IMG/VR virus record: IMGVR_UViG_3300025769_000017 | Span: 1-44,230 of that record | Strand: one strand, 5' to 3' | Origin: a virus | DNA: 44,230 nucleotides | In this document: in pieces, positions 3,294 to 21,520 of the stretch | How positions within the stretch are numbered: the stretch's first letter is position 1 | Layout of the letters: the number at the start of each line of letters is the position of its first letter | Translations under genes and position numbers: made by a program | The notes under the pieces: generated by a model | What the model was told of the DNA's origin: nothing | The model's input: only the letters and a program-made list of their open reading frames with translations | The model's database searches: none

Positions 3294-6029
3294 ATGAGAA
3301 AGCCCGCTATGCATTCCATCTGGTTGGTGTTGGTTCTTTCAGTTCTTAGCTCCAGCGTTCGCGGTGGCACAGTTGGTGACCTCACCTACAGCATTACTGA
3401 TGGTCAGGTTGTGATTACAGATTGCGATACGTCTGCTGAGGGTGAGTTGACCATCCCTGCTGAAATTGAGGGCTTACCCGTCACCAGCATTGGGGATGCG
3501 GCTTTCTTTCGCTGCAGCAGTCTGACCTCGATCACCATACCTGAGGGAGTCACCAGCATTGGGAATGAGGCCTTCCACAACTGCTCCAGCCTAACCTCGA
3601 TCACCATACCTGAGGGCGTCACCAGCATTGGGAATGGGGCCTTCTGGGGCTGCAGCAGTCTGACATCAATCACCATACCCGACAGCGTCACCAGCATTGG
3701 GCGTGGCGCCTTCATACGGTGCGGCCTGAATTCAATCACCATCCCTGATGGGGTCACCAGCATTGGGGGTTATGCCTTCTGGGATTGCAGCAGGCTGACC
3801 TCGATCACCATCCCAGATAGTGTTACCAGTATTGGTGAGCAGGCCTTCCGGAACTGCAGCAGCCTGGCGTCTATCGCCATTCCGGGCACAGTCAATAGCG
3901 TTGGGAATGCGGCCTTTATTGGCTGCGGCAATCTGACCACATTATTAATACCTCTGAAGTTTCATTCTGAATCTGAGGCTACCCGCCTAGGCCTTGATAG
4001 CAGTCTATACCCAGAAGGCTTTTTACCTCCTGATCCTCGCGCAGTAGCCATAGCCATTCTTTCCAACGGTTTTGTGGTGGATGCTCACATCAACTTTCCT
4101 GGTGCATCATATGTTGAGGTTCCTAAAGTCACGATAATCGGTGGCGGTGGTCAGGGAGCTGAGGCAGTGGCTTACTTGAGTGATCAATTTTCGATTGAAT
4201 CGATCAAAATTACTAACGCAGGCAGTGGCTACACCTCACCTCCTAAAATCATAATCGATCAACCGACCACCATGACGATCCCACACCGATTCAGCCTACT
4301 TCCAGAATCTCAACAGGGCTTCAAAGGCGAAGAAATACTCGTTCCGTTCAGGGTGGAGGATTACCTCTACATCACAGGGTTCCAATTTAGCCTTGCTTGG
4401 GATCCGGAGATTATGAAACTGGTGACAGAGGGTGATACCGGGAATCAGGTAAAACTCGGCCAAGTCGCTGTGTTGGGTGAATGGCCGAACTTTAAGCCAA
4501 TGCTTACCTCCAGCAACTTTGGAATTCAGGAGCCAGGTAGTCTTACGTTTCTTTGGGATGAGGCTTTAAATCCTGAGTTAGGGCAAACACTTGTCGACGA
4601 TACTGTCCTGTTCAGCCTTGCTTTCCAGTTGGTAGGTGCCGGTGGAAGTAGCACCACCTTGTCGGTGGTTGAAACACCGACAGCCATCAGGGCATTACAC
4701 AAATCGGGAATTGAAATCCCGCTGTATACTGAGGAAGCCCTCATTGAAGTCTCTGATGCAATTAGTCTTACTGGGGCTATCACGTTGTTCGGCGAAGGTC
4801 TAAAACCAATACCATGGGTAAAAATACTCACTCGTCAAGGCGCTGAGACTGTCACGACCTTCGCAGACGAAGGAGGGCAATACCTGGTAAGCATCGAGCC
4901 AGTTTTTGACTATCAGCTGACAGCAAGTCTTGCCTCCAGAGAATTCCCAAGTGCGGGTGTAGATGTTTCAGACATCATCATGCTGCGTAAACATATTCTC
5001 AATCTCGAACGCCTTCCAAACAACATGTCCATGCTTGCTGCTGACGTAAACCGAGACGGATTTATCGATGTTGGTGATATTATTGGCATGCGCAAAGTGA
5101 TACTTGGCATAGATGCATTTTACTCAATTCAAAGCGATGGAACCCCAGAGGATATTTTTCGGTTTGTGAATGCGGAGTTTACCGATGGAGCAGTGGAAAA
5201 TTTCTTCTCCGATCTAGCGGAAGCCTCAGTCATCAGCCTTGATGGGCCTTCCGCCAACACGTCAGGGGTCGACTTTGCAGGCGTCAAACTAGGCGATACC
5301 AACGGCGACTGGGAGCCGCCAACCACCGGTAGCACAACCCTGGAGGCCACGCCTGCTGGGGACCGCCTAGGGCAGCCCATAGCAAACGCATACCTTGATT
5401 TTGGATCTGTGAAAGTTACCCAAGACGGACACATGAATCTGCCACTTTATCTCACAGCTAACGAGCCACTGATGGGTGTGCAGTTTGAACTAAACTGGGA
5501 CCGCACATTGTTGGCTTTGGATAGCATCAGTTCATCCGCCCTGCCGGGCTTCAGCCCTAACTTTCACACTAGTGTGCACGAGGGTTCTGCCAAGGTCGCT
5601 TGGGATGATGCCATGCTCAGCGGAATTCAGGCCGATGGCAGTGAGCCGCTCCTGATGCTGCACTTTAATCGGCTGAGCGAGGGTGCCACTGGACTGGAGC
5701 TGAAGGCACCTGTATTGGCTGGCAATCATGGTAGCCTTGGTTGGGTGCAACCTGTCTCAGCTTATCTAAAGCCGGACAACACGGTCAAAACGGCTTTGAG
5801 TGGTGCGATCAAATACATCGAGGTAGAGGGCGGTCAACTTGAGTTGGTGGTCGATACGCAGGTTGGACAGAGCTATCAACTGCAAACTGTAGCCAAGCTG
5901 AACTCAGATGAGTGGAAAGACGTGATGCGCATCCAGGGCAGTGACACCTGGCAGAAAGTTGTTTTACCCGCTGAGGCACAGAAAGCCTACCTACGACTCG
6001 TGTCATTGAACTCTGAAGCTATCAGGTAA
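3294..6029 (+). CDS. Secreted BspA-like LRR / cohesin-like / dockerin-like protein (moron)
   Basis: This 911-residue protein has an N-terminal signal peptide (about residues 1-24) and several modules typical of host extracellular proteins. BspA-type leucine-rich repeats of about 23 residues (SLTSITIPEGVTSIG pattern) span about residues 50-240. A short beta module with a GSGYTSPP motif follows at about 243-315, and a cohesin-like beta domain at about 320-470. A carboxypeptidase-regulatory-like segment is at about 490-545. A dockerin-like pair of helices with the calcium-loop pattern DVNRDGFIDVGD lies at about 550-610, then a second cohesin-like domain at about 688-810, and a C-terminal beta region. 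It reads opposite to the flanking phage genes, so it is probably a lysogenic-conversion gene acting at the host surface or outside the cell. The domain calls are by pattern. Binding partners are unknown. Confidence 0.85.
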   Translation: MRKPAMHSIWLVLVLSVLSSSVRGGTVGDLTYSITDGQVVITDCDTSAEGELTIPAEIEGLPVTSIGDAAFFRCSSLTSITIPEGVTSIGNEAFHNCSSLTSITIPEGVTSIGNGAFWGCSSLTSITIPDSVTSIGRGAFIRCGLNSITIPDGVTSIGGYAFWDCSRLTSITIPDSVTSIGEQAFRNCSSLASIAIPGTVNSVGNAAFIGCGNLTTLLIPLKFHSESEATRLGLDSSLYPEGFLPPDPRAVAIAILSNGFVVDAHINFPGASYVEVPKVTIIGGGGQGAEAVAYLSDQFSIESIKITNAGSGYTSPPKIIIDQPTTMTIPHRFSLLPESQQGFKGEEILVPFRVEDYLYITGFQFSLAWDPEIMKLVTEGDTGNQVKLGQVAVLGEWPNFKPMLTSSNFGIQEPGSLTFLWDEALNPELGQTLVDDTVLFSLAFQLVGAGGSSTTLSVVETPTAIRALHKSGIEIPLYTEEALIEVSDAISLTGAITLFGEGLKPIPWVKILTRQGAETVTTFADEGGQYLVSIEPVFDYQLTASLASREFPSAGVDVSDIIMLRKHILNLERLPNNMSMLAADVNRDGFIDVGDIIGMRKVILGIDAFYSIQSDGTPEDIFRFVNAEFTDGAVENFFSDLAEASVISLDGPSANTSGVDFAGVKLGDTNGDWEPPTTGSTTLEATPAGDRLGQPIANAYLDFGSVKVTQDGHMNLPLYLTANEPLMGVQFELNWDRTLLALDSISSSALPGFSPNFHTSVHEGSAKVAWDDAMLSGIQADGSEPLLMLHFNRLSEGATGLELKAPVLAGNHGSLGWVQPVSAYLKPDNTVKTALSGAIKYIEVEGGQLELVVDTQVGQSYQLQTVAKLNSDEWKDVMRIQGSDTWQKVVLPAEAQKAYLRLVSLNSEAIR
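3484..3960 (+). repeat. 69-bp-period DNA repeats encoding LRRs (large gene)
   Basis: The LRR part of the gene is built of near-identical units of about 69 bp, each containing ATCACCAT and GTCACCAGCATTGGG-like blocks. The period equals 23 codons. Nearly identical units occur in the second LRR gene at about 21012-21430, so the two loci could recombine. Confidence 0.85.
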
Positions 6030-6403: not shown

Positions 6404-6627
6404 CGAATTCTCAGTAGACCAATTCCAACCATCAAATCAAGAATCAGGAGTATGCCAATAATCCAACACCACATGCTGATATTTTGTGTGCTTTGCGCGG
6501 TTCTCAAATTAGTTTTCGCTATACCTTCGGCTGCTGCTTTGAAACATGCATTGAGTTCCTCCATCTCAGCAATCAGTGATCCAAGCTGATTTTTCATCGC
6601 CTTCAAGTCTTCTGATTCATTGCTCAT
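6400..6627 (-). CDS. Small coiled-coil membrane protein
   Basis: This 75-residue protein has a charged helical N-terminal part (about residues 1-48) and a C-terminal transmembrane segment around WCWIIGILLILDLMVGIGLL (about 53-72). The shape, an N-terminal cytoplasmic coiled coil and a C-terminal anchor, occurs in phage accessory, lysis and superinfection-exclusion proteins. It is too generic to assign. It is the first gene of the ATGA-coupled pair 6627-6080. Confidence 0.65.
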   Translation of the reverse strand: MSNESEDLKAMKNQLGSLIAEMEELNACFKAAAEGIAKTNLRTAQSTQNISMWCWIIGILLILDLMVGIGLLRIR

Positions 6628-6831
6628 AGTTGAATGATTGTTTGCCAGAAGCTCTCATATTTGGCAATGCCGTGCCCTGATAGAAAAACCGACCAGTGCG
6701 TGAACACTGACCGCTGAAACCTGATTGCCAGACAGACTCGGCTTTTATGCGGTTACCGAGTGGGCGAATATGTTAACCAGCGAACACGTGCGCCGCCGCA
6801 ATACCCTGAACTGTCTGACGTGTTGAAAGTA

Positions 6832-6880
6832 AAGCCTGAGGGCATCTCAGCCCCCAGCTTGCTTAGCGCAGGCTAGTTCT
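6832..6880. repeat. 49-bp direct repeat, left copy, with terminator-like hairpin
   Basis: This segment matches 8825-8873 at 45 of 49 positions, including a 29-base identical block. It contains a CTGAG-GGCAT-CTCAG hairpin. The two copies bracket the three plus-strand genes 6949-8762, as expected if that cassette was inserted by recombination at a duplicated gene-end/terminator. Confidence 0.85.
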
Positions 6881-6899
6881 CGATCATTTTGGCAATAGC

Positions 6900-6927
6900 T
6901 TGCCTTATTTAAGTCAATGTGTATTCA
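6900..6927 (+). promoter_or_regulatory. Candidate promoter of the zinc-ribbon membrane cassette
   Basis: TTGCCT (6900-6905) and TATTCA (6922-6927) are separated by 16 nt. The first gene starts at 6949 with TAAGG 3 nt before the ATG. The elements are imperfect, so this is a weak call. Confidence 0.35.
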
Positions 6928-6948
6928 TGCTAACAATCACCTAAGGCC

Positions 6949-7722
6949 ATGAGCACCTTGTCCAAAAAATGCCCTCGTTGCAGTAGAGCCAACATCGATT
7001 ATAGGGCGACCAAGTGCTACAACTGCGGTTGCGATGTCAGCCGCGTCAAACCGCTGCCCATGAGGGAACACGCTAGCAAGCAGGTCGCTAGCAAGCAGGT
7101 CAACTCCAACTCTGATGGCAAGTTGCGATGCCCTCAATGCAACCGGAGCATCTCCAGCAAAAACTATGATCAGCATGTCAAAGTTCGTTGCAAAAATGCC
7201 CCAGCTAGCGCAGAGCGAACTGCCTACCTAAAACAGCAGAAGGAAAAGCGGGAGGCAGCAAACTCAAATGCACCCGTCAGCCAAATCGGAACACGTCGAA
7301 AGCTTACCGAGAAGGAACAATTGGTTTGGAATGCATTTCGCTCAATGCCTGGCAGACATTCCGATGACGCTGCATGGGAGGCCTTCCACCAGTTTGAACG
7401 CGATTGCGCTGCGGACGAGCGCAGGGAAAAGCTCGAAGCTCAACGTAGAGCCAAAGCCAGCCCAATTGCTTTGTTTTGGGAGGATAACCCAGCCACCTTC
7501 ATTTGGATCATCGGCATCGCAGCAATGGTCATAGTCATGTTCGCAATGGCTGTTACATACGACGGTAGCAACCGTAATAGCAACGGTCGCAGCGCCAACA
7601 AATACTGTAAGGAATCAGGATGCACCAGCTTGGCCAGCGGCTTTTGGAATGCTGGAACCGGATATTGCAACTACCACGCTGATGAACGCCGGAAATTTTA
7701 CAACGCTGTGCTCAACAAATAA
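6949..7722 (+). CDS. Zinc-ribbon membrane protein with C-terminal CxxxxC/CxxH domain
   Basis: This 257-residue protein has an N-terminal zinc ribbon (CPRC near residue 9 and CYNC near 23) and a second zinc-finger-like site (CPQC with a later H and C, about residues 61-81). A charged helical region precedes one transmembrane segment (about 181-203, IWIIGIAAMVIVMFAMAV). The C-terminal domain has a CKESGC pair and a later CNYH. The same C-terminal pattern occurs in the third gene of the cassette. The first gene of a plus-strand trio, it runs opposite to neighbouring phage genes. Membrane topology with zinc sites on both sides suggests a sensor or exclusion role, but no function is known to me. 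Confidence 0.75.
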   Translation: MSTLSKKCPRCSRANIDYRATKCYNCGCDVSRVKPLPMREHASKQVASKQVNSNSDGKLRCPQCNRSISSKNYDQHVKVRCKNAPASAERTAYLKQQKEKREAANSNAPVSQIGTRRKLTEKEQLVWNAFRSMPGRHSDDAAWEAFHQFERDCAADERREKLEAQRRAKASPIALFWEDNPATFIWIIGIAAMVIVMFAMAVTYDGSNRNSNGRSANKYCKESGCTSLASGFWNAGTGYCNYHADERRKFYNAVLNK

Positions 7723-7740
7723 CCCATCACCGTAAAACCA

Positions 7741-8157
7741 ATGTCAAACGATCCCGCCGACAATGTCGCAAAAGGCTGCACTGTGTTTGTATTTGGCAGC
7801 ATTGGCCTGCTGATACTGCTTGGGCAGTGCAATAAATCTGGCAGCAACAGCTCTAGCGGTGGCAGCTCTAGCAGCTACGAATACACACCAAGCACGTCGT
7901 CATCGTCATCAAGCTCAAGTGGCAGCTCCTCCACAGTCTGGACCTCAAGCTCCAACGGCTACACATGGAACAAGGCGTCCTACTCAAGCAAAATGGATAT
8001 TTGCCGAAGGATGGCGAGCGTTAGCAACAAAGGAAACACTGCTAATTTTTACTACCAGGCCTTTGAGAATTTTTACGATTCGACCGATTCATCGATCTTG
8101 TCAACCTCGATGGAGGACGCTAGCAGGCTCGTTGAAGCGGCAAGCTCAGCCTACTGA
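7741..8157 (+). CDS. Membrane-anchored protein with Ser-rich linker
   Basis: This 138-residue protein has an N-terminal hydrophobic anchor (about residues 13-30, VFVFGSIGLLILLGQC). A long Ser/Gly/Thr linker (about 31-70) follows, then a compact C-terminal domain of about 65 residues beginning near NGYTWNKASY. The cysteine after the hydrophobic stretch could be lipidated, but the preceding LLGQ is not a standard lipobox. It lies 18 nt after the first cassette gene and 14 nt before the third, so the three are probably co-transcribed. Function unknown; the C-terminal domain is presumably extracytoplasmic. Confidence 0.7.
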   Translation: MSNDPADNVAKGCTVFVFGSIGLLILLGQCNKSGSNSSSGGSSSSYEYTPSTSSSSSSSSGSSSTVWTSSSNGYTWNKASYSSKMDICRRMASVSNKGNTANFYYQAFENFYDSTDSSILSTSMEDASRLVEAASSAY

Positions 8158-8171
8158 CGCTTAAGTTTGAA

Positions 8172-8762
8172 ATGGCTGAATCAGATTCAGATTTGTGTGG
8201 TTGGTGTGGAGAAGTTTTAAAGTATTCCCCCAACCCGGAACCGCGTTGTCCTTTTTGCGGCACGGAGCGATACATGACCCAAAAAAACTTTAAACCTGGT
8301 TTCGCAGCCAAAAAAGAACCTGGTTTCGCAGCTGCAAAAAGCACTGCCGATAGCCAAAACCTCACCTTAGGCAAATTCATTGCCTTAATGCTCGGATTCT
8401 TATTTTTAGCTGTGTATATGGAGCTTTTTAAGGACGATAAGAAGGAGCAGGAGGAAAAATATCGGCGGGAACTACAAAAAACTCAGGCGGCACTTGAAAA
8501 ACAAAAGCAGTTTTCCCGGGATATGCAGGTCCGGGGTGAATTTTGTACTGAGTTTCCGGCATGCACTAGACCCCTTGCTGTTGTTTATATGGCTGATGAA
8601 AATTTTACCTTCATTAATGGCGTCTGCGCTAAGCATTTTACCGAACTTCCTGCGGTACTCCAGAAGCACTATCTTGAGGAGCAGATAAGGCTTCGGGAAC
8701 TAGGAATTACGCCGACACCAAATCCTGAACGTTCGGGATGGCAGAATCGCTGGATCAGATAG
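8172..8762 (+). CDS. Zinc-ribbon membrane protein, distant paralogue of the first cassette gene
   Basis: This 196-residue protein repeats the architecture of the gene at 6949. It has an N-terminal zinc ribbon (CGWC near residue 9 and CPFC near 26) and a transmembrane segment (about 69-85, FIALMLGFLFLAVYMEL). A coiled-coil stretch rich in Lys, Glu and Gln (about 88-115) leads to a C-terminal domain with CTEFPAC and a later CAKH. The shared domain order and CxxxxC/CxxH spacing suggest common descent despite low overall similarity. A short GFAAKKEP/GFAAAKS direct repeat precedes the membrane segment. Function unknown. Confidence 0.75.
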   Translation: MAESDSDLCGWCGEVLKYSPNPEPRCPFCGTERYMTQKNFKPGFAAKKEPGFAAAKSTADSQNLTLGKFIALMLGFLFLAVYMELFKDDKKEQEEKYRRELQKTQAALEKQKQFSRDMQVRGEFCTEFPACTRPLAVVYMADENFTFINGVCAKHFTELPAVLQKHYLEEQIRLRELGITPTPNPERSGWQNRWIR

Positions 8763-8824
8763 GCCCAGGGGAATCAGGAATCATACCGATACCAAGTTCT
8801 GAACGTTGGGGGTTGCATTTTTGA

Positions 8825-8873
8825 AAGGCTGAGGGCATCTCAGCCCCCAGCTTGCTTTGCGCGGACTAGTTCT
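8825..8873. repeat. 49-bp direct repeat, right copy, with hairpin terminator
   Basis: This is the partner of 6832-6880. It contains the perfect hairpin GGCTGAG-GGCAT-CTCAGCC (8827-8845) and the stop codon of the leftward gene ending at 8866. The hairpin follows that gene directly, so it is likely the terminator of the replication operon. It may also stop rightward transcription from the cassette. Confidence 0.85.
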
Positions 8874-9216
8874 GAACCAGCTCATCAAAGCCCAGAATTG
8901 GGCCGTCAAACACTGATTGCAGTGCCCGCATGCCGCCGTAGTCGGCGTTTAGACAGGTCAGGATCTGATCCGCCTTATCGAGTGCAAATGCCCTCTCATC
9001 GTCGAACCCTGGATTGATACAGGGCCTCCAAGTTTCGGGGCTAGACTCAACAACCTTCTCAACTCCTGACCATGGACCAGCAACGTGCGCCAACGCATAC
9101 TTACCGCTTGTTGTCGGTCGGTAGATGGCGATGACGAGGTAGTTTGACTCCTCGTTCCACCACTGCATTGTCACTCCGTGTTGGTGCTTTAGTAGGACCT
9201 GTGGTTCTAACCGCAT
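8866..9216 (-). CDS. Hypothetical protein, last gene of the replication operon
   Basis: This 116-residue protein has no recognised domain. The ATG at 9216 is preceded by a good AAAGGAAG ribosome site. An upstream in-frame ATG at 9285 would add 23 residues and increase the overlap with the zinc-finger gene 9101-9316. With the 9216 start the two reading frames still overlap by 116 nt, which is unusual. The gene ends in the hairpin-bearing repeat at 8825-8873. Confidence 0.6.
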   Translation of the reverse strand: MRLEPQVLLKHQHGVTMQWWNEESNYLVIAIYRPTTSGKYALAHVAGPWSGVEKVVESSPETWRPCINPGFDDERAFALDKADQILTCLNADYGGMRALQSVFDGPILGFDELVQN

Positions 9217-9316
9217 GCTTCCTTTCTTTGTATCCCCAACCTCCGCAGGCTGGGCAAATTTCGATCTCTGATTGTCCGTTGACATATCCTCTGCCGTTGC
9301 ATACCTGACATGTCAT
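9101..9316 (-). CDS. Small DnaJ-type zinc-finger protein
   Basis: This 71-residue protein carries two CxxCxGxG-type motifs, CQVCNGRGY (about residues 3-11) and CPACGGWGY (about 21-29), as in half of a DnaJ cysteine-rich domain. Such small proteins are common in phage replication operons. Its ATG at 9316 overlaps the preceding stop as ATGA. The C-terminal 40 residues overlap the next gene in another frame. They may be non-conserved, although no earlier stop exists. Confidence 0.6.
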   Translation of the reverse strand: MTCQVCNGRGYVNGQSEIEICPACGGWGYKERKHAVRTTGPTKAPTRSDNAVVERGVKLPRHRHLPTDNKR

Positions 9317-15638: not shown

Positions 15639-17567
15639 ATGGCCGCTCCAAAGCAGATCAGCTTCAGACCAGACGAGGAAATTCGCCACATCTACGACTT
15701 GTTCATGGATGACGACTGGCTGGAAACAGTGGCAATAGCTGCTGGGGAAAATGGCGTAAACGTGGATTATGGCGACTTTGCCTTGAGCCCTAAGGTTTTC
15801 ATCAGTCACCTGATTCGCAAGGAATACGAGCGGGTCGAGAAGTATATGAGAAAGCCGGGCAGCCTGAACGATCTGCAGGTTTTTGAGGCCGTCAAATACA
15901 AGGATTGGCCAGATCTGGTGCCTGCCAAGGTTGAAATTCCATCAGGTGAACTTACTCGTAAATGTTGTGAAAACGGCTGGGAAAGCTGGTATACCCGGTT
16001 GGATCTAAATAACGGGCCAGTACCAGACGAAGGCCATCAGCTTAGTTTGGGCGAGGTCATGATGCTGTATAGGCGGGGCATCATTAACGGTGAGCGTATT
16101 GCCGAGTTCAGGGGCGCAACTTCAATGCACGTTTACCAAGACCCTGAAAACGGCGAACTGATCAAAGCATACCACACCAACCTTGGCGTGATTGAGCATG
16201 CTGTAGACCAAAGATACTACAAGTATGAAGCCGAATTCACCGGTCCCAAAGATGGCGAAGGATACATAAGCTGGCGCATGGCTAAGGTTCAACCGGCGCT
16301 TGGAGACGGCATTGACCTGAGTAACGGGAAGGAGATACAGAACCTCATCACCGCCGATAGCTTTAGGGTCGAATTAATTGAGCTTCCAAACGGTGCTATA
16401 TACAGCCGAAAAACCAAGGTCAACGCAAATGGCGATGGCGTGGATATACCTGCAGTTCAACAAATCCGAGATGCGCAAAATGACAAGGAGGCCCCTGAAA
16501 TCCCGGATCAGGAAGTAACTGCCGAGCAGATTGCTGAGTGGGACAAACAGAGCGAGGACTATGAGCAGGCGCGCGCGATTGCACATTTTGAGGCAACGGT
16601 TGACACCATTGAACATCGAATCCGCAAACACCGCGCAAAGTATTATCTCCCCCACCCTGACTACAAAAAATTGGCGAATTTGGCTGCAGCGGCATTTAGG
16701 CGGGGAGATGAAAACCCGATTGAGAAAACATATGCATATGAGATGCCCCCGCGAGTCATTAACAATGACGGCGAGCTAAACCGCAAAGAATACCAACGCT
16801 GGGTTGTCACCGACAGAAACCTGCATCTCCAGGAATTTTACAAACGCACCGAAACGCACATCCCACAAGGTGCAGTTGGCAAACCGCTGGTAGAATACCT
16901 CCGAGCGCTGCACCTGCCATTACTTGAGCATGATCCTCGCGAGACGGGCGAGGAGATCGACCCAGAATACTACGAAGAATACACCGAGGCGCTGTCCCGA
17001 CCTATGGACCGCAAGTCGCTGCTAAGCATGTGCCAACCAGGCTCAAAGGTCTCAACCGAACGCTGCTTCCTTGCCATCTTGGCCTTCATGGCTCACCGAA
17101 TAGATCACGTCAAATCAGCATGGGCGCTGATAGATGCCATTACCCCCACGTTAAAACAATTGCGGACAAAAAAGCAGATCACACGCAAACAAGCATACGA
17201 CCAGCTACGCAGACTGAGGCAAACTGAACACCTTCCAGGCTTGCGCCCGGCAACCTATTGCTCCCTGATTTACTTCCTACGCCCTACTCAGGATGGATAC
17301 ATGCTGTCATCCCACACAGCCAAATCCATCAACCTAATTGCTGGTGACGACATCATTCAGCTAAACCAATCCGGCTATCCTACAGACGAAAATACCGCTG
17401 AAAATTACGAAGCTTATTGCCAGATCATTGACCACATTGGTGCGCATGGTCATCACAAACAAATGAGCGGCGCTGAAGTTGAGGAGCGGTTGCAATCATA
17501 CAGCGAACCATTGGTTGGCGAATGGCGCGAATACCTTGGGAAGTTCGAGAATGTCAGATTGCGCTGA
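15639..17567 (+). CDS. Large accessory protein with RHH-like N-terminus, function unknown
   Basis: This 642-residue protein lies on the plus strand next to the lysogeny genes. The N-terminus (KQISFRPDEEI, then FISHLIRKEYERVEKYM at about residues 50-70) has a strand-helix-helix shape like RHH proteins. The middle is charged and probably multi-domain. The C-terminal 200 residues (for example RPATYCSLIYFLRP and HTAKSINLI) recall the all-helical OGG/HhH-type glycosylase-like fold, but the usual catalytic Asp position is not clear. Size, strand and place suggest a moron, perhaps a DNA-binding or defence protein. I do not recognise a characterised family. Confidence 0.65.
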   Translation: MAAPKQISFRPDEEIRHIYDLFMDDDWLETVAIAAGENGVNVDYGDFALSPKVFISHLIRKEYERVEKYMRKPGSLNDLQVFEAVKYKDWPDLVPAKVEIPSGELTRKCCENGWESWYTRLDLNNGPVPDEGHQLSLGEVMMLYRRGIINGERIAEFRGATSMHVYQDPENGELIKAYHTNLGVIEHAVDQRYYKYEAEFTGPKDGEGYISWRMAKVQPALGDGIDLSNGKEIQNLITADSFRVELIELPNGAIYSRKTKVNANGDGVDIPAVQQIRDAQNDKEAPEIPDQEVTAEQIAEWDKQSEDYEQARAIAHFEATVDTIEHRIRKHRAKYYLPHPDYKKLANLAAAAFRRGDENPIEKTYAYEMPPRVINNDGELNRKEYQRWVVTDRNLHLQEFYKRTETHIPQGAVGKPLVEYLRALHLPLLEHDPRETGEEIDPEYYEEYTEALSRPMDRKSLLSMCQPGSKVSTERCFLAILAFMAHRIDHVKSAWALIDAITPTLKQLRTKKQITRKQAYDQLRRLRQTEHLPGLRPATYCSLIYFLRPTQDGYMLSSHTAKSINLIAGDDIIQLNQSGYPTDENTAENYEAYCQIIDHIGAHGHHKQMSGAEVEERLQSYSEPLVGEWREYLGKFENVRLR

Positions 17568-17669: not shown

Positions 17670-18062
17670 CTAGTTTCTTGCCGCCAATTTGGATGATTTA
17701 GAATCATTCTCAGCCTTGGACTTTTCGCGCATCTCTGCCCACATCTCCAAAAGCCTGTCGTAGACAGCTATGTTGAAAATGTATTCTGCCATGGTGTGAC
17801 AATGATCATGGAAATCACCCATTCTGTAGTCTTCGTCTCCAAATGCTGCATTGGCCCTGTCGAGAAGTTCTTCGTTTGCTTCGGACACCATCACGATGAA
17901 TTCCAATCCTTCATTCAGAACCGCCTTGTCAGTGTGATGCTGGATTTGTTCATCGAAACTGAAATCATCCGGTTCCACCCCTTCGTCAATTATGTTCAAA
18001 GCGCAATTTTCCACGCCTCGCAGAAATTGCTCGTAGTTGGTCATTCGCAGTAGTCGTTTCAT
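17670..18062 (-). CDS. Hypothetical protein co-transcribed with the integrase
   Basis: This is a 130-residue, acidic, helical protein with a His-rich patch HDHCHTMAEY near residues 86-95. Its ATG at 18062 overlaps the integrase stop as ATGA, so translation is coupled. A second ATG at 18044 is possible. Genes coupled to integrases can encode excisionases or immunity functions, but this acidic protein does not look like a DNA-binding excisionase. Function unknown. Confidence 0.6.
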   Translation of the reverse strand: MKRLLRMTNYEQFLRGVENCALNIIDEGVEPDDFSFDEQIQHHTDKAVLNEGLEFIVMVSEANEELLDRANAAFGDEDYRMGDFHDHCHTMAEYIFNIAVYDRLLEMWAEMREKSKAENDSKSSKLAARN

Positions 18063-19243
18063 TTGCTTGTTCCTTTGTGGTTTTTTGACAAGCCCAGCGA
18101 TTCAGGCGTCAGATTCCAATAGGCCTCAACGTCCTTGAGCACCACTAGTGACTTGTAGTTTTTGAAAAATGGCCCTACGCCGGTGCCGCCCCAGTGAACG
18201 GTCTTATCGAGGCTCTGGGTTTTGGCTGAGTAGAAGCTGAGAGCTGTGTGTCGGAGCACGTTGTCATACTTGCGGTCCGTAATTTTGGCATCAACCCTCA
18301 TCTGCTCGAATGCTTTGCGGTATCGATACGATGATTCGACGCCATCCTGAACCTCCGGCACAATTGGTTGGGACGTGTCCAACCACGGTAGAATTGCAGC
18401 CTCAAGCTCCACGGTTCGCACGTCACGTTTTTTGGCAACTTTCGGCAGCACTTTGATCACCAAATCCTCGGAGTCAACTTGCTCCCAATCCAGCCGCTTA
18501 GCCTCCTGGTTCCGCAATCCCGCAAACAACTGCAGAGCAACCAACGACTGAATCGGTGTTCCATAGGCGGCTTTCAAGACCGCTTTGGTTTGCGCCAATG
18601 TAAGCGCCACATTGTCTGTCCCCTCAACCTTTGGTTTGGCAACCACGTCCAGCGGGTTTGAGGTCACATATCCAAACTTAATTGCCCAGTTGAAAAGCTG
18701 ACCGCATTTGGTGATGTAGTTTTTCCTAGTCTGCGCTGATGCGTTTTCGGGGATCATCCCATCCAATGCTTCGCTGGTAACCTGGTGCAACTTGAGCTGA
18801 CCAAAGGCTCTGTTCAGCTTGTTTGTAAATTGTCTCAGTTCGCCCAAGGTTCTTTCGGTCAGGTTTTCCTTCGCCTTGTATTTCAAAAACTCTGCGCACG
18901 CTGCATCGACTGATTTTTCTGAGCCGGGTTCGACGTAGTTTTTGATGCAGTAGTCAACCGCTTCGGACAACGAAACAATCGGAACCTTTTTCAGAAGCTG
19001 ATACGCCATCTCAGCATCAGCAACCTGCCCACTTGTCAGCCGAGTCTTTGCGTAGGTATCAACCTCGGTCTCAGACTTCTCACTGAACTCAATCTGCTGC
19101 CTGCATCGCTCGGCTTTATCGTAGTCCTCAAAGAACCTCCTGACACGCAATCCGTGACGCATTGTTCCGGACACCAACCATGCTCGCTTACCGTTGTTGT
19201 AGGTATACCGACTGATGGAAAATTTGGACCGCGGCTTAGGCAT
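18059..19243 (-). CDS. int: Tyrosine recombinase / integrase
   Basis: This 394-residue protein begins MPKPRSKFSISRYTYNNGKR. It has an N-terminal arm-binding region, a core-binding SAM-like domain (FLKYKAKENLTERTL onward) and a catalytic domain. The catalytic domain shows the first Arg in LFAGLRNQEAKRL, a beta-hairpin Lys region, the second Arg in NVLRHTALSF, and the likely Tyr nucleophile in FFKNYKSL. The usual His before LRH is Asn. The C-terminal NYKSLV...EAYWNLTP resembles integrases I associate with Verrucomicrobiota. It lies next to the tRNA-Ser fragment, as expected for tRNA-targeted integration. An upstream ATG at 19327 is less likely. Confidence 0.85.
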   Translation of the reverse strand: MPKPRSKFSISRYTYNNGKRAWLVSGTMRHGLRVRRFFEDYDKAERCRQQIEFSEKSETEVDTYAKTRLTSGQVADAEMAYQLLKKVPIVSLSEAVDYCIKNYVEPGSEKSVDAACAEFLKYKAKENLTERTLGELRQFTNKLNRAFGQLKLHQVTSEALDGMIPENASAQTRKNYITKCGQLFNWAIKFGYVTSNPLDVVAKPKVEGTDNVALTLAQTKAVLKAAYGTPIQSLVALQLFAGLRNQEAKRLDWEQVDSEDLVIKVLPKVAKKRDVRTVELEAAILPWLDTSQPIVPEVQDGVESSYRYRKAFEQMRVDAKITDRKYDNVLRHTALSFYSAKTQSLDKTVHWGGTGVGPFFKNYKSLVVLKDVEAYWNLTPESLGLSKNHKGTSK

Positions 19244-19252
19244 GAGTCGAAC

Positions 19253-19275
19253 TTTAATGTCAATTTTAATGTCAA
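19253..19275. repeat. Two TTTAATGTCAA repeats (arm-type site candidates)
   Basis: The 11-bp unit occurs at 19253-19263 and 19265-19275, just upstream of the integrase start. Its TGTCAA core also appears twice, in inverted form, at 19593-19608 on the other side of the tRNA fragment. This layout is what integrase arm sites on the two flanks of attP would give. Confidence 0.45.
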
Positions 19276-19358
19276 CAAGCAAAAAACAACCACCAAGGAA
19301 CCGCATGTGAAAACTTTCACAAGGCATGATTCGGGTCTGTTTGAGGTGATTAGGGCAT

Positions 19359-20749: not shown

Positions 20750-21520
20750 ATGCCGAATCATGTGCTCAAATTGTTCTGCTTGCTGCTCTGTGTGTTCAGC
20801 CTTTGGGGATGCGGCCAAAGGCAGGGTGGAAAAACCTCTGAAAGCCAACCCTCTGAAAGCCAACCCACTGAAAGCCAACCCACTGAAAGCCAACCCACTG
20901 AAAGTCCAAACCACGAAATGCTTTCCTACGTGATAGGAGATGCTGAGGTGGCGATTACTGGATACAACTTATTCGAGGAGGGGGAGTTAGTTATCCCTGA
21001 ACAAATTGAGGGCTTACCTGTTACCAGCATTGGGGATTCGGCCTTTGCAGACTGCATCGGCCTGAGCTCGATCACTATCCCCGAGGGCGTCACCAGCATT
21101 GGGGATTGGGCCTTCCGGGGTTGCAGCAGTCTGACATCGATCACCATCCCTGAGGGCGTCACCAGCATTGGTTATGTGGCCTTCCGTGGGTGCAGCAGCC
21201 TGACTTCGATCACCATCCCAGATAGTGTCACCAGCATTGGGGATTCGGCCTTCTGGGAATGCAGCAGCTTGACCTCGATCACCATTCCCGATAGCGTCAC
21301 CAGCATTAAGGGTGGGGCCTTCGCTGAATGCATCGGCCTGAGCTCGATCACCATCCCCGATAGTGTCACCAGTATTGGGGATTCGGCCTTTGCAGATTGC
21401 ATCGGCCTGAGCTCGATTAGCATTCCACAAGCATTTCACAGTGAAGTCGAAGCAAGCCGCCTAGGCCTAGATAAATTATGGCCCGACGGGTTTGCTCTGC
21501 CTGATAGCTCCAGCAAGTAA
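20750..21520 (+). CDS. BspA-like LRR lipoprotein (moron)
   Basis: This 256-residue protein has a lipoprotein signal peptide ending at LWGC with Cys21. A linker of TESQP pentapeptide repeats (about residues 29-52) follows, then about six BspA-type leucine-rich repeats (SLTSITIPDSVTSIG pattern, about 85-225). The C-terminus reads FHSEVEASRLGLD and WPDGF. It is a short paralogue of the 911-residue LRR protein, which has the same FHSE/RLGLD/GF stretch after its repeats. It would be lipid-anchored at the cell surface or periplasm. GAGG precedes the ATG. It sits 38 nt after a strong terminator and probably depends on promoter C read-through or an unseen promoter. Confidence 0.85.
   Translation: MPNHVLKLFCLLLCVFSLWGCGQRQGGKTSESQPSESQPTESQPTESQPTESPNHEMLSYVIGDAEVAITGYNLFEEGELVIPEQIEGLPVTSIGDSAFADCIGLSSITIPEGVTSIGDWAFRGCSSLTSITIPEGVTSIGYVAFRGCSSLTSITIPDSVTSIGDSAFWECSSLTSITIPDSVTSIKGGAFAECIGLSSITIPDSVTSIGDSAFADCIGLSSISIPQAFHSEVEASRLGLDKLWPDGFALPDSSSK
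20838..20904 (+). repeat. 15-bp tandem repeat encoding the TESQP linker
   Basis: CTGAAAGCCAACCC[A/T] is repeated four times plus a partial fifth copy. The unit is five codons, so slippage changes linker length without a frameshift. Confidence 0.85.
21012..21430 (+). repeat. 69-bp-period DNA repeats encoding LRRs (lipoprotein gene)
   Basis: These units match the repeats at 3484-3960 closely at the DNA level, including a GTCACCAGCATTGGGGAT block. Such similarity between two loci allows gene conversion or deletion. Confidence 0.8.

Follow-up and report, generated by a model that had tools for sequence, protein, structure and literature searches.

How does a block of three genes that runs against the surrounding lytic genes come to lie between two copies of one short repeat? 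The locus in question belongs to a linear IMG/VR virus record of 44,230 bases (IMGVR_UViG_3300025769_000017), which we analysed over its whole length and refer to as the window. The virus is a tailed and probably temperate phage, since the window encodes a major head protein, tail proteins, an integrase (18059-19327; E = 6e-28), and a DnaB-like helicase and dNMP kinase; an exonuclease is encoded as well. As a guess from its BspA-like LRR genes and from an RNA adjacent to the locus, its host may belong to the Verrucomicrobiota. One BspA-like LRR gene (3294-6029, +) also shows a borderline match to dockerin, and a second + strand ORF (20750-21520) contains DNA similar to the LRR repeats. Both run against the lytic strand, as the trio does, and both regions match the LRR gene of a related contig (L007). 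A 642-aa ORF at 15639-17567 (+) had no PHROG match.

The gene trio and its flanking repeats

The trio occupies the + strand, with 18 bp between the first and second ORF (257 and 138 aa) and 14 bp between the second and the third (196 aa). A hairpin flanks it on each side, and the surrounding lytic genes are on the − strand. Gene 1 (6949-7722, +; 257 aa) encodes CxxC pairs at residues 8, 23 and 61, a strongly predicted membrane helix at ~184-202 and a C-terminal C-x4-C-x14-C-x2-H motif. Gene 2 (7741-8157, +; 138 aa) combines an N-terminal membrane helix (~9-27) with a Ser-rich linker and a small C-terminal domain. The product of gene 3 (8172-8762, +; 196 aa) begins with a zinc ribbon, continues with a membrane helix (~64-82) that extends as a long helix, and ends in C-x5-C-x21-C-x2-H. 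The first-pass annotation, made from the sequence alone, had described the trio as zinc-ribbon membrane proteins encoded opposite to their phage neighbours, and both parts of this description hold: each of genes 1 and 3 encodes zinc-ribbon motifs together with one membrane-spanning helix. Because no other window ORF of at least 90 aa has their C-terminal pattern, we conclude that these two proteins are built alike, with zinc ribbons at the N-terminus, then a membrane helix, and C-x4/5-C...C-x2-H at the C-terminus; a BLASTP comparison between them gives a weak alignment.

Pfam zinc-ribbon matches to the trio proteins are all sub-threshold, and no convincing match was obtained in Pfam, PHROGs, NCBIfam, PADLOC or PDB sequences (best scores E = 0.019 in PADLOC, E = 0.02 in PHROGs and, for a DNA polymerase iota fragment, E = 0.005 in PDB). 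Family models of known superinfection-exclusion or defence systems gave no significant match, and the first-pass suggestion of an exclusion, sensing or defence module is neither borne out nor contradicted by these searches. Homologues in IMG/VR were confined to the window's own population, genes 1 and 3 had none in cultured phages, and the gene-2 domain had no match in 84,980 species genomes. Across 289 genomes of the Cerasicoccus frondis phylum, matches to the trio were weak and mostly contained stops. One match of gene 3 at E = 4e-4 was rejected: the 492-aa protein that it hits is unrelated, and the aligned stretch is a generic zinc ribbon. Single-sequence structure predictions were of low confidence (mean pLDDT 57.6 for gene 3 and 41.0 for gene 2). 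GC3 is 0.58, 0.62 and 0.43 for genes 1, 2 and 3, compared with 0.53-0.66 for most other genes tested, with gene 3 alone of the trio deviating in composition.

The repeat, first described as 49 bp with 45 identical positions, extends to 50 bp at 6831-6880 and 8824-8873 (46/50 identical, ungapped). Such a pair has a chance expectation of about 2e-14 in 44 kb, and the window holds no third copy even when up to 18 mismatches are allowed. On the − strand each copy folds into a hairpin (−16.7 and −18.9 kcal/mol), in line with the initial description, and in a terminator scan the left one is classed as terminator-like on this strand only. The gene end that had been noticed within the repeat is that of a 139-aa phage gene adjoining the insertion (8866-9285, −): its stop (8866-8868) lies in the right copy (8824-8873, −) together with the terminator hairpin. 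The left copy (6831-6880, −) likewise pairs a terminator-like hairpin with a gene-end-like stop (CTAGTTCT). At the right cassette edge, a remnant of the gene-3 3′ end (8752-8823, +) carries its own TGA beside the repeat; 8752-8817 is a second copy of that 3′ end (49/66 identical, 74%). This remnant suggests that sequence was exchanged or duplicated here once before. A scan of 6600-9300 for sigma-70-type promoters, a type that may not be the host's, found no site.

Empty junctions in related phages

Related contigs were gathered by a DnaB search, and five reach the junction. L004/L011 (IMGVR_UViG_3300006802_016355) represents the same population as the window and carries the trio. In L006, L007, L008 and L009 the trio is missing: the 139-aa gene is followed by one repeat copy and then directly by a homologue of window 6725-6830. 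L007 and L008 apparently represent one species, so these four contigs amount to three lineages. The nearest relative is L006, a sister whose 139-aa protein is 97% identical and whose right flank shows 85.5% nucleotide identity; in L007/L008 and L009 the same protein is 72% identical. Another scan with the 139-aa family added no relatives to this set. The trio thus occurs in one phage and is missing from the corresponding junction of close relatives, the distribution expected of a moron. Comparison with related phages had been proposed at the outset as the check on an insertion, and it returned trio-less single-copy junctions with the same flanks in three lineages. Neither of the outcomes named as contrary was seen: the relatives do not all carry the trio without a repeat, nor is the repeat widespread and unrelated to the cassette borders. 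The comparison shows that the trio was gained or lost at this junction.

In three of the relatives the single copy folds into the same hairpin form with a changed stem sequence. Because the hairpin is kept at the empty sites while its stem letters have changed, the repeat is an ancestral, conserved element, a predicted terminator at the end of the 139-aa gene, and not a new feature. This bears directly on the possibility that the trio is a small mobile element, integrated site-specifically by a recombinase acting in trans, with the 50-bp repeat as attL/attR. Many integrating elements leave direct repeats at gene 3′ ends, and the phage encodes an integrase. Set against this are the prior existence of the terminator-like hairpin in trio-less phages, the four differences among the 50 positions of the two copies, and the fact that a second integration site was not seen. 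None of the trio proteins matched a recombinase in family searches, and a recombinase inside the element would be expected of such an element. We regard site-specific integration as very improbable.

We read 6881-8823 as an insertion, because in L006, L007/L008 and L009 the same flanks are joined by one repeat copy and no trio; most probably it is a moron, an accessory operon acquired through recombination at the terminator. The first-pass annotation had left insertion and duplication at a terminator side by side; the junctions bear out the former, with the direction of the event inferred. In the course of events that we propose, a self-contained accessory operon would have entered the probably temperate phage at the terminator closing the early-gene operon, and homologous recombination between terminators would have placed one terminator copy on each side of the trio. 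This route through terminator homology is plausible and somewhat favoured. In the lysogen, the trio could then be expressed from the + strand, independently of the lytic operons. The leftover end of gene 3 at the right edge suggests that exchange occurred repeatedly. Against the moron reading stand the failure of our searches to find a donor or another trio carrier, the lack of a promoter-like site, and a deviant composition in gene 3 only.

The junctions could also have arisen in the opposite direction, with the trio and two terminators ancestral and the relatives having lost the trio by direct-repeat recombination. A deletion between direct repeats of 50 bp would be a simple event whose product is precisely the observed junction with one copy, and loss through recombination between the copies would leave identical empty sites. 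However, ancestral presence demands at least two independent losses (in L006 and in the L007/L009 group), whereas a single event suffices for a gain. For this reason we consider gain clearly the more probable direction, with the polarity read from few contigs. The two copies, moreover, resemble different relatives in part: the right copy is close to that of L006, and the left shares CAGGCTAGTTCT with L007/L009. Recombination between lineages explains this split at least as well as ancestral loss does, and ancestral loss appears unlikely to us.

A third history concerns the left copy. If the terminator had been duplicated in tandem with its neighbouring gene and the trio had then replaced the duplicated gene body, the tail of a lost gene might survive at the left edge, as the first-pass annotation supposed. 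The frame running into the left copy (CTAGTTCT) is indeed open in the cassette leader (6881-6948) for about 11 − strand codons, and only about 11 (...IRQAIAKMIEN*), before the gene-end-like stop, and the gene-3 tail supplies a second, partial duplication at the other edge. However, the would-be tail is unlike that of the 139-aa gene (ELVQN/ELAEN) or of other compared loci, and among the loci compared its letters were matched only in the same population. The open codons themselves stand, and a lost-gene remnant is a possible, unproven reading of them; duplication followed by replacement is a distinctly improbable account of the whole cassette. Recombination at the terminator remains the reading that we prefer.

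The stretch beside the cassette is, judging from these contigs, a hot spot for inserts. L019, which covers more of the contig that L008 represents, carries a different 3.1-kb insert with several phage-strand ORFs just left of its homologue of the 6725-6830 element (L019:4942-9600). Between its homologues of window 6683 and 6675 lies a + strand gene that encodes membrane helices and motifs resembling zinc ribbons. It adjoins an LRR gene whose counterpart is located elsewhere in the window, and both are opposite to the phage strand. In the window, a second terminator-like hairpin (6690-6713, −) lies just left of the RNA described below, and the stretch 6683-6713, which is 97% conserved in L007, adjoins the other insertion points.

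A pseudoknotted RNA beside the left repeat

Outside the cassette and kept at the empty site, a 77-nt pseudoknotted RNA is predicted near the left repeat (6734-6809, −; 79.3 bits with the covariance model R1). Pattern scans for this element returned 24 viral stretches at first and at least 119 in a second round. A pattern of the same kind occurs twice in the 84,980-species genome collection, in Cerasicoccus frondis and an Altibacter MAG, and the covariance model finds the element in 4 of the 289 genomes of the C. frondis phylum. From 52 distinct sequences we derived a structure with helices P1 (4 pairs), P2 (3 pairs) and P3 (5 pairs) and a 4-pair pseudoknot, in which GCGG pairs with the P3 loop (GUAAYCGCAUAAAAGC). 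In the alignment, 93.9% of cells are paired, a value scored on the same sequences from which the structure was derived. Covariation is extensive: 195 cells changed on both sides, compared with 61.1 ± 5.6 in shuffled alignments and at most 93 when slid. Because a fixed core pattern served to collect the sequences, the core is invariant partly through selection, which leaves the helix covariation unaffected.

Because the modelled strand has more G-U than A-C pairs (74 vs 10), the RNA strand is likely the − strand of the window, which is the lytic strand; the same counts disfavour a DNA-level element or an RNA from the opposite strand. The element is mostly intergenic, and by a longest-ORF rule, a crude measure, the longest nearby ORF lies downstream on the same strand in 42 of 61 cases, usually with 5-84 nt between the RNA and the start of that ORF. 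Genes that follow it include a DNA polymerase and a Sak4-like annealing protein. L006 holds two copies in tandem (L006:4382-4559) beside its single terminator copy. In the window, the trio sits between the RNA and the operon that precedes the RNA in the relatives.

Known RNA families, as far as Rfam 15 covers them, do not account for the element. Rfam 15 gave no match to it in the window at the gathering score, and across ten loci this threshold returned one tRNA only, which is not the RNA element. A permissive Rfam search of L024 returned no match, and the window gave only a chance-like SNORA9 match (E = 0.42). Twister or another known ribozyme, considered for the AUAAAA loop, is not matched by the Rfam models, and the arrangement presumably differs from those of twister and the known ribozymes. 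BLAST searches of cultured phages yielded weak leads, and the RNA model had no match in the Polaribacter phage Danklef region or in the whole Verrucomicrobia phage P8625. We found no description of the RNA in the open-licence literature, nor does it appear in the consulted main-text passages of a study on permuted ribozymes (PMC10085705). We think it probable that the element represents a real and yet undescribed class of small pseudoknotted RNA; as to its role, a self-cleaving ribozyme and a cis-regulatory RNA are candidates. The RNA and the terminator together are candidates for a border marker between a conserved early operon and a variable region where accessory genes enter, while a functional link between the RNA and the cassette itself is quite doubtful.

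Possible function and comparison with known systems

As far as protein architecture and genomic setting allow a guess, host envelope modification or superinfection exclusion would be the most likely function of the trio, a tentative assignment: two zinc-ribbon proteins that each cross the membrane once, with a small partner anchored in the membrane, would alter the envelope or exclude superinfection. Irrespective of function, the cassette is a clean case of an accessory operon whose site can be seen both occupied and, in three lineages, empty; the duplicated terminator is the scar, and the case points to gene-end terminators as entry points beyond T4-like phages. The proteins are orphans, two of them with an unusual common plan. 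The RNA may matter more than the cassette, being compact, pseudoknotted and strongly covarying, present in more than 100 viral stretches and matched by no RNA family library searched; it is directly testable for self-cleavage or ligand binding.

Temperate phages carry membrane proteins for superinfection exclusion as accessory genes. SieA of P22 is a superinfection-exclusion membrane protein (PMC10883804). Like exclusion of this type, the trio comprises membrane proteins encoded as accessory genes of a probably temperate phage; unlike it, the trio follows a plan of zinc ribbon and C-terminal CCCH, and we found no sequence relationship.

The kind of event proposed here is already known, both from morons and from terminator-mediated shuffling. 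In T4-like phages, PeSL promoter/stem-loop motifs mediate the shuffling of modules (Arbiol 2010 and Comeau 2014, as cited in PMC4503421 and PMC3950731). To the extent that these citing papers describe them, PeSLs resemble the present repeat in that a conserved intergenic stem-loop serves as a patch for swaps of accessory genes. Whereas a PeSL comprises an early promoter and a stem-loop in many genome copies, the repeat combines a hairpin with a gene end, has no recognisable promoter and occurs in two copies only, and its phage is unrelated to the T4-like phages and probably temperate.

The closest system is that of the prophage morons and accessory loci of lambdoid and other temperate phages (PMC1524935, PMC6469090, PMC7067206). 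Morons are described as insertions equipped with a promoter and a terminator of their own (PMC1524935), and accessory loci are frequently expressed in lysogeny (PMC7067206); for the trio, a promoter, a + strand terminator and lysogenic expression are candidate properties by analogy. The trio differs from morons in that the neighbouring gene's terminator is directly duplicated on both sides and its proteins are without known relatives. Like morons, it forms a self-contained set of extra reverse-strand genes between phage genes, flanked by terminator-like hairpins and absent in close relatives, in a phage that carries an integrase.
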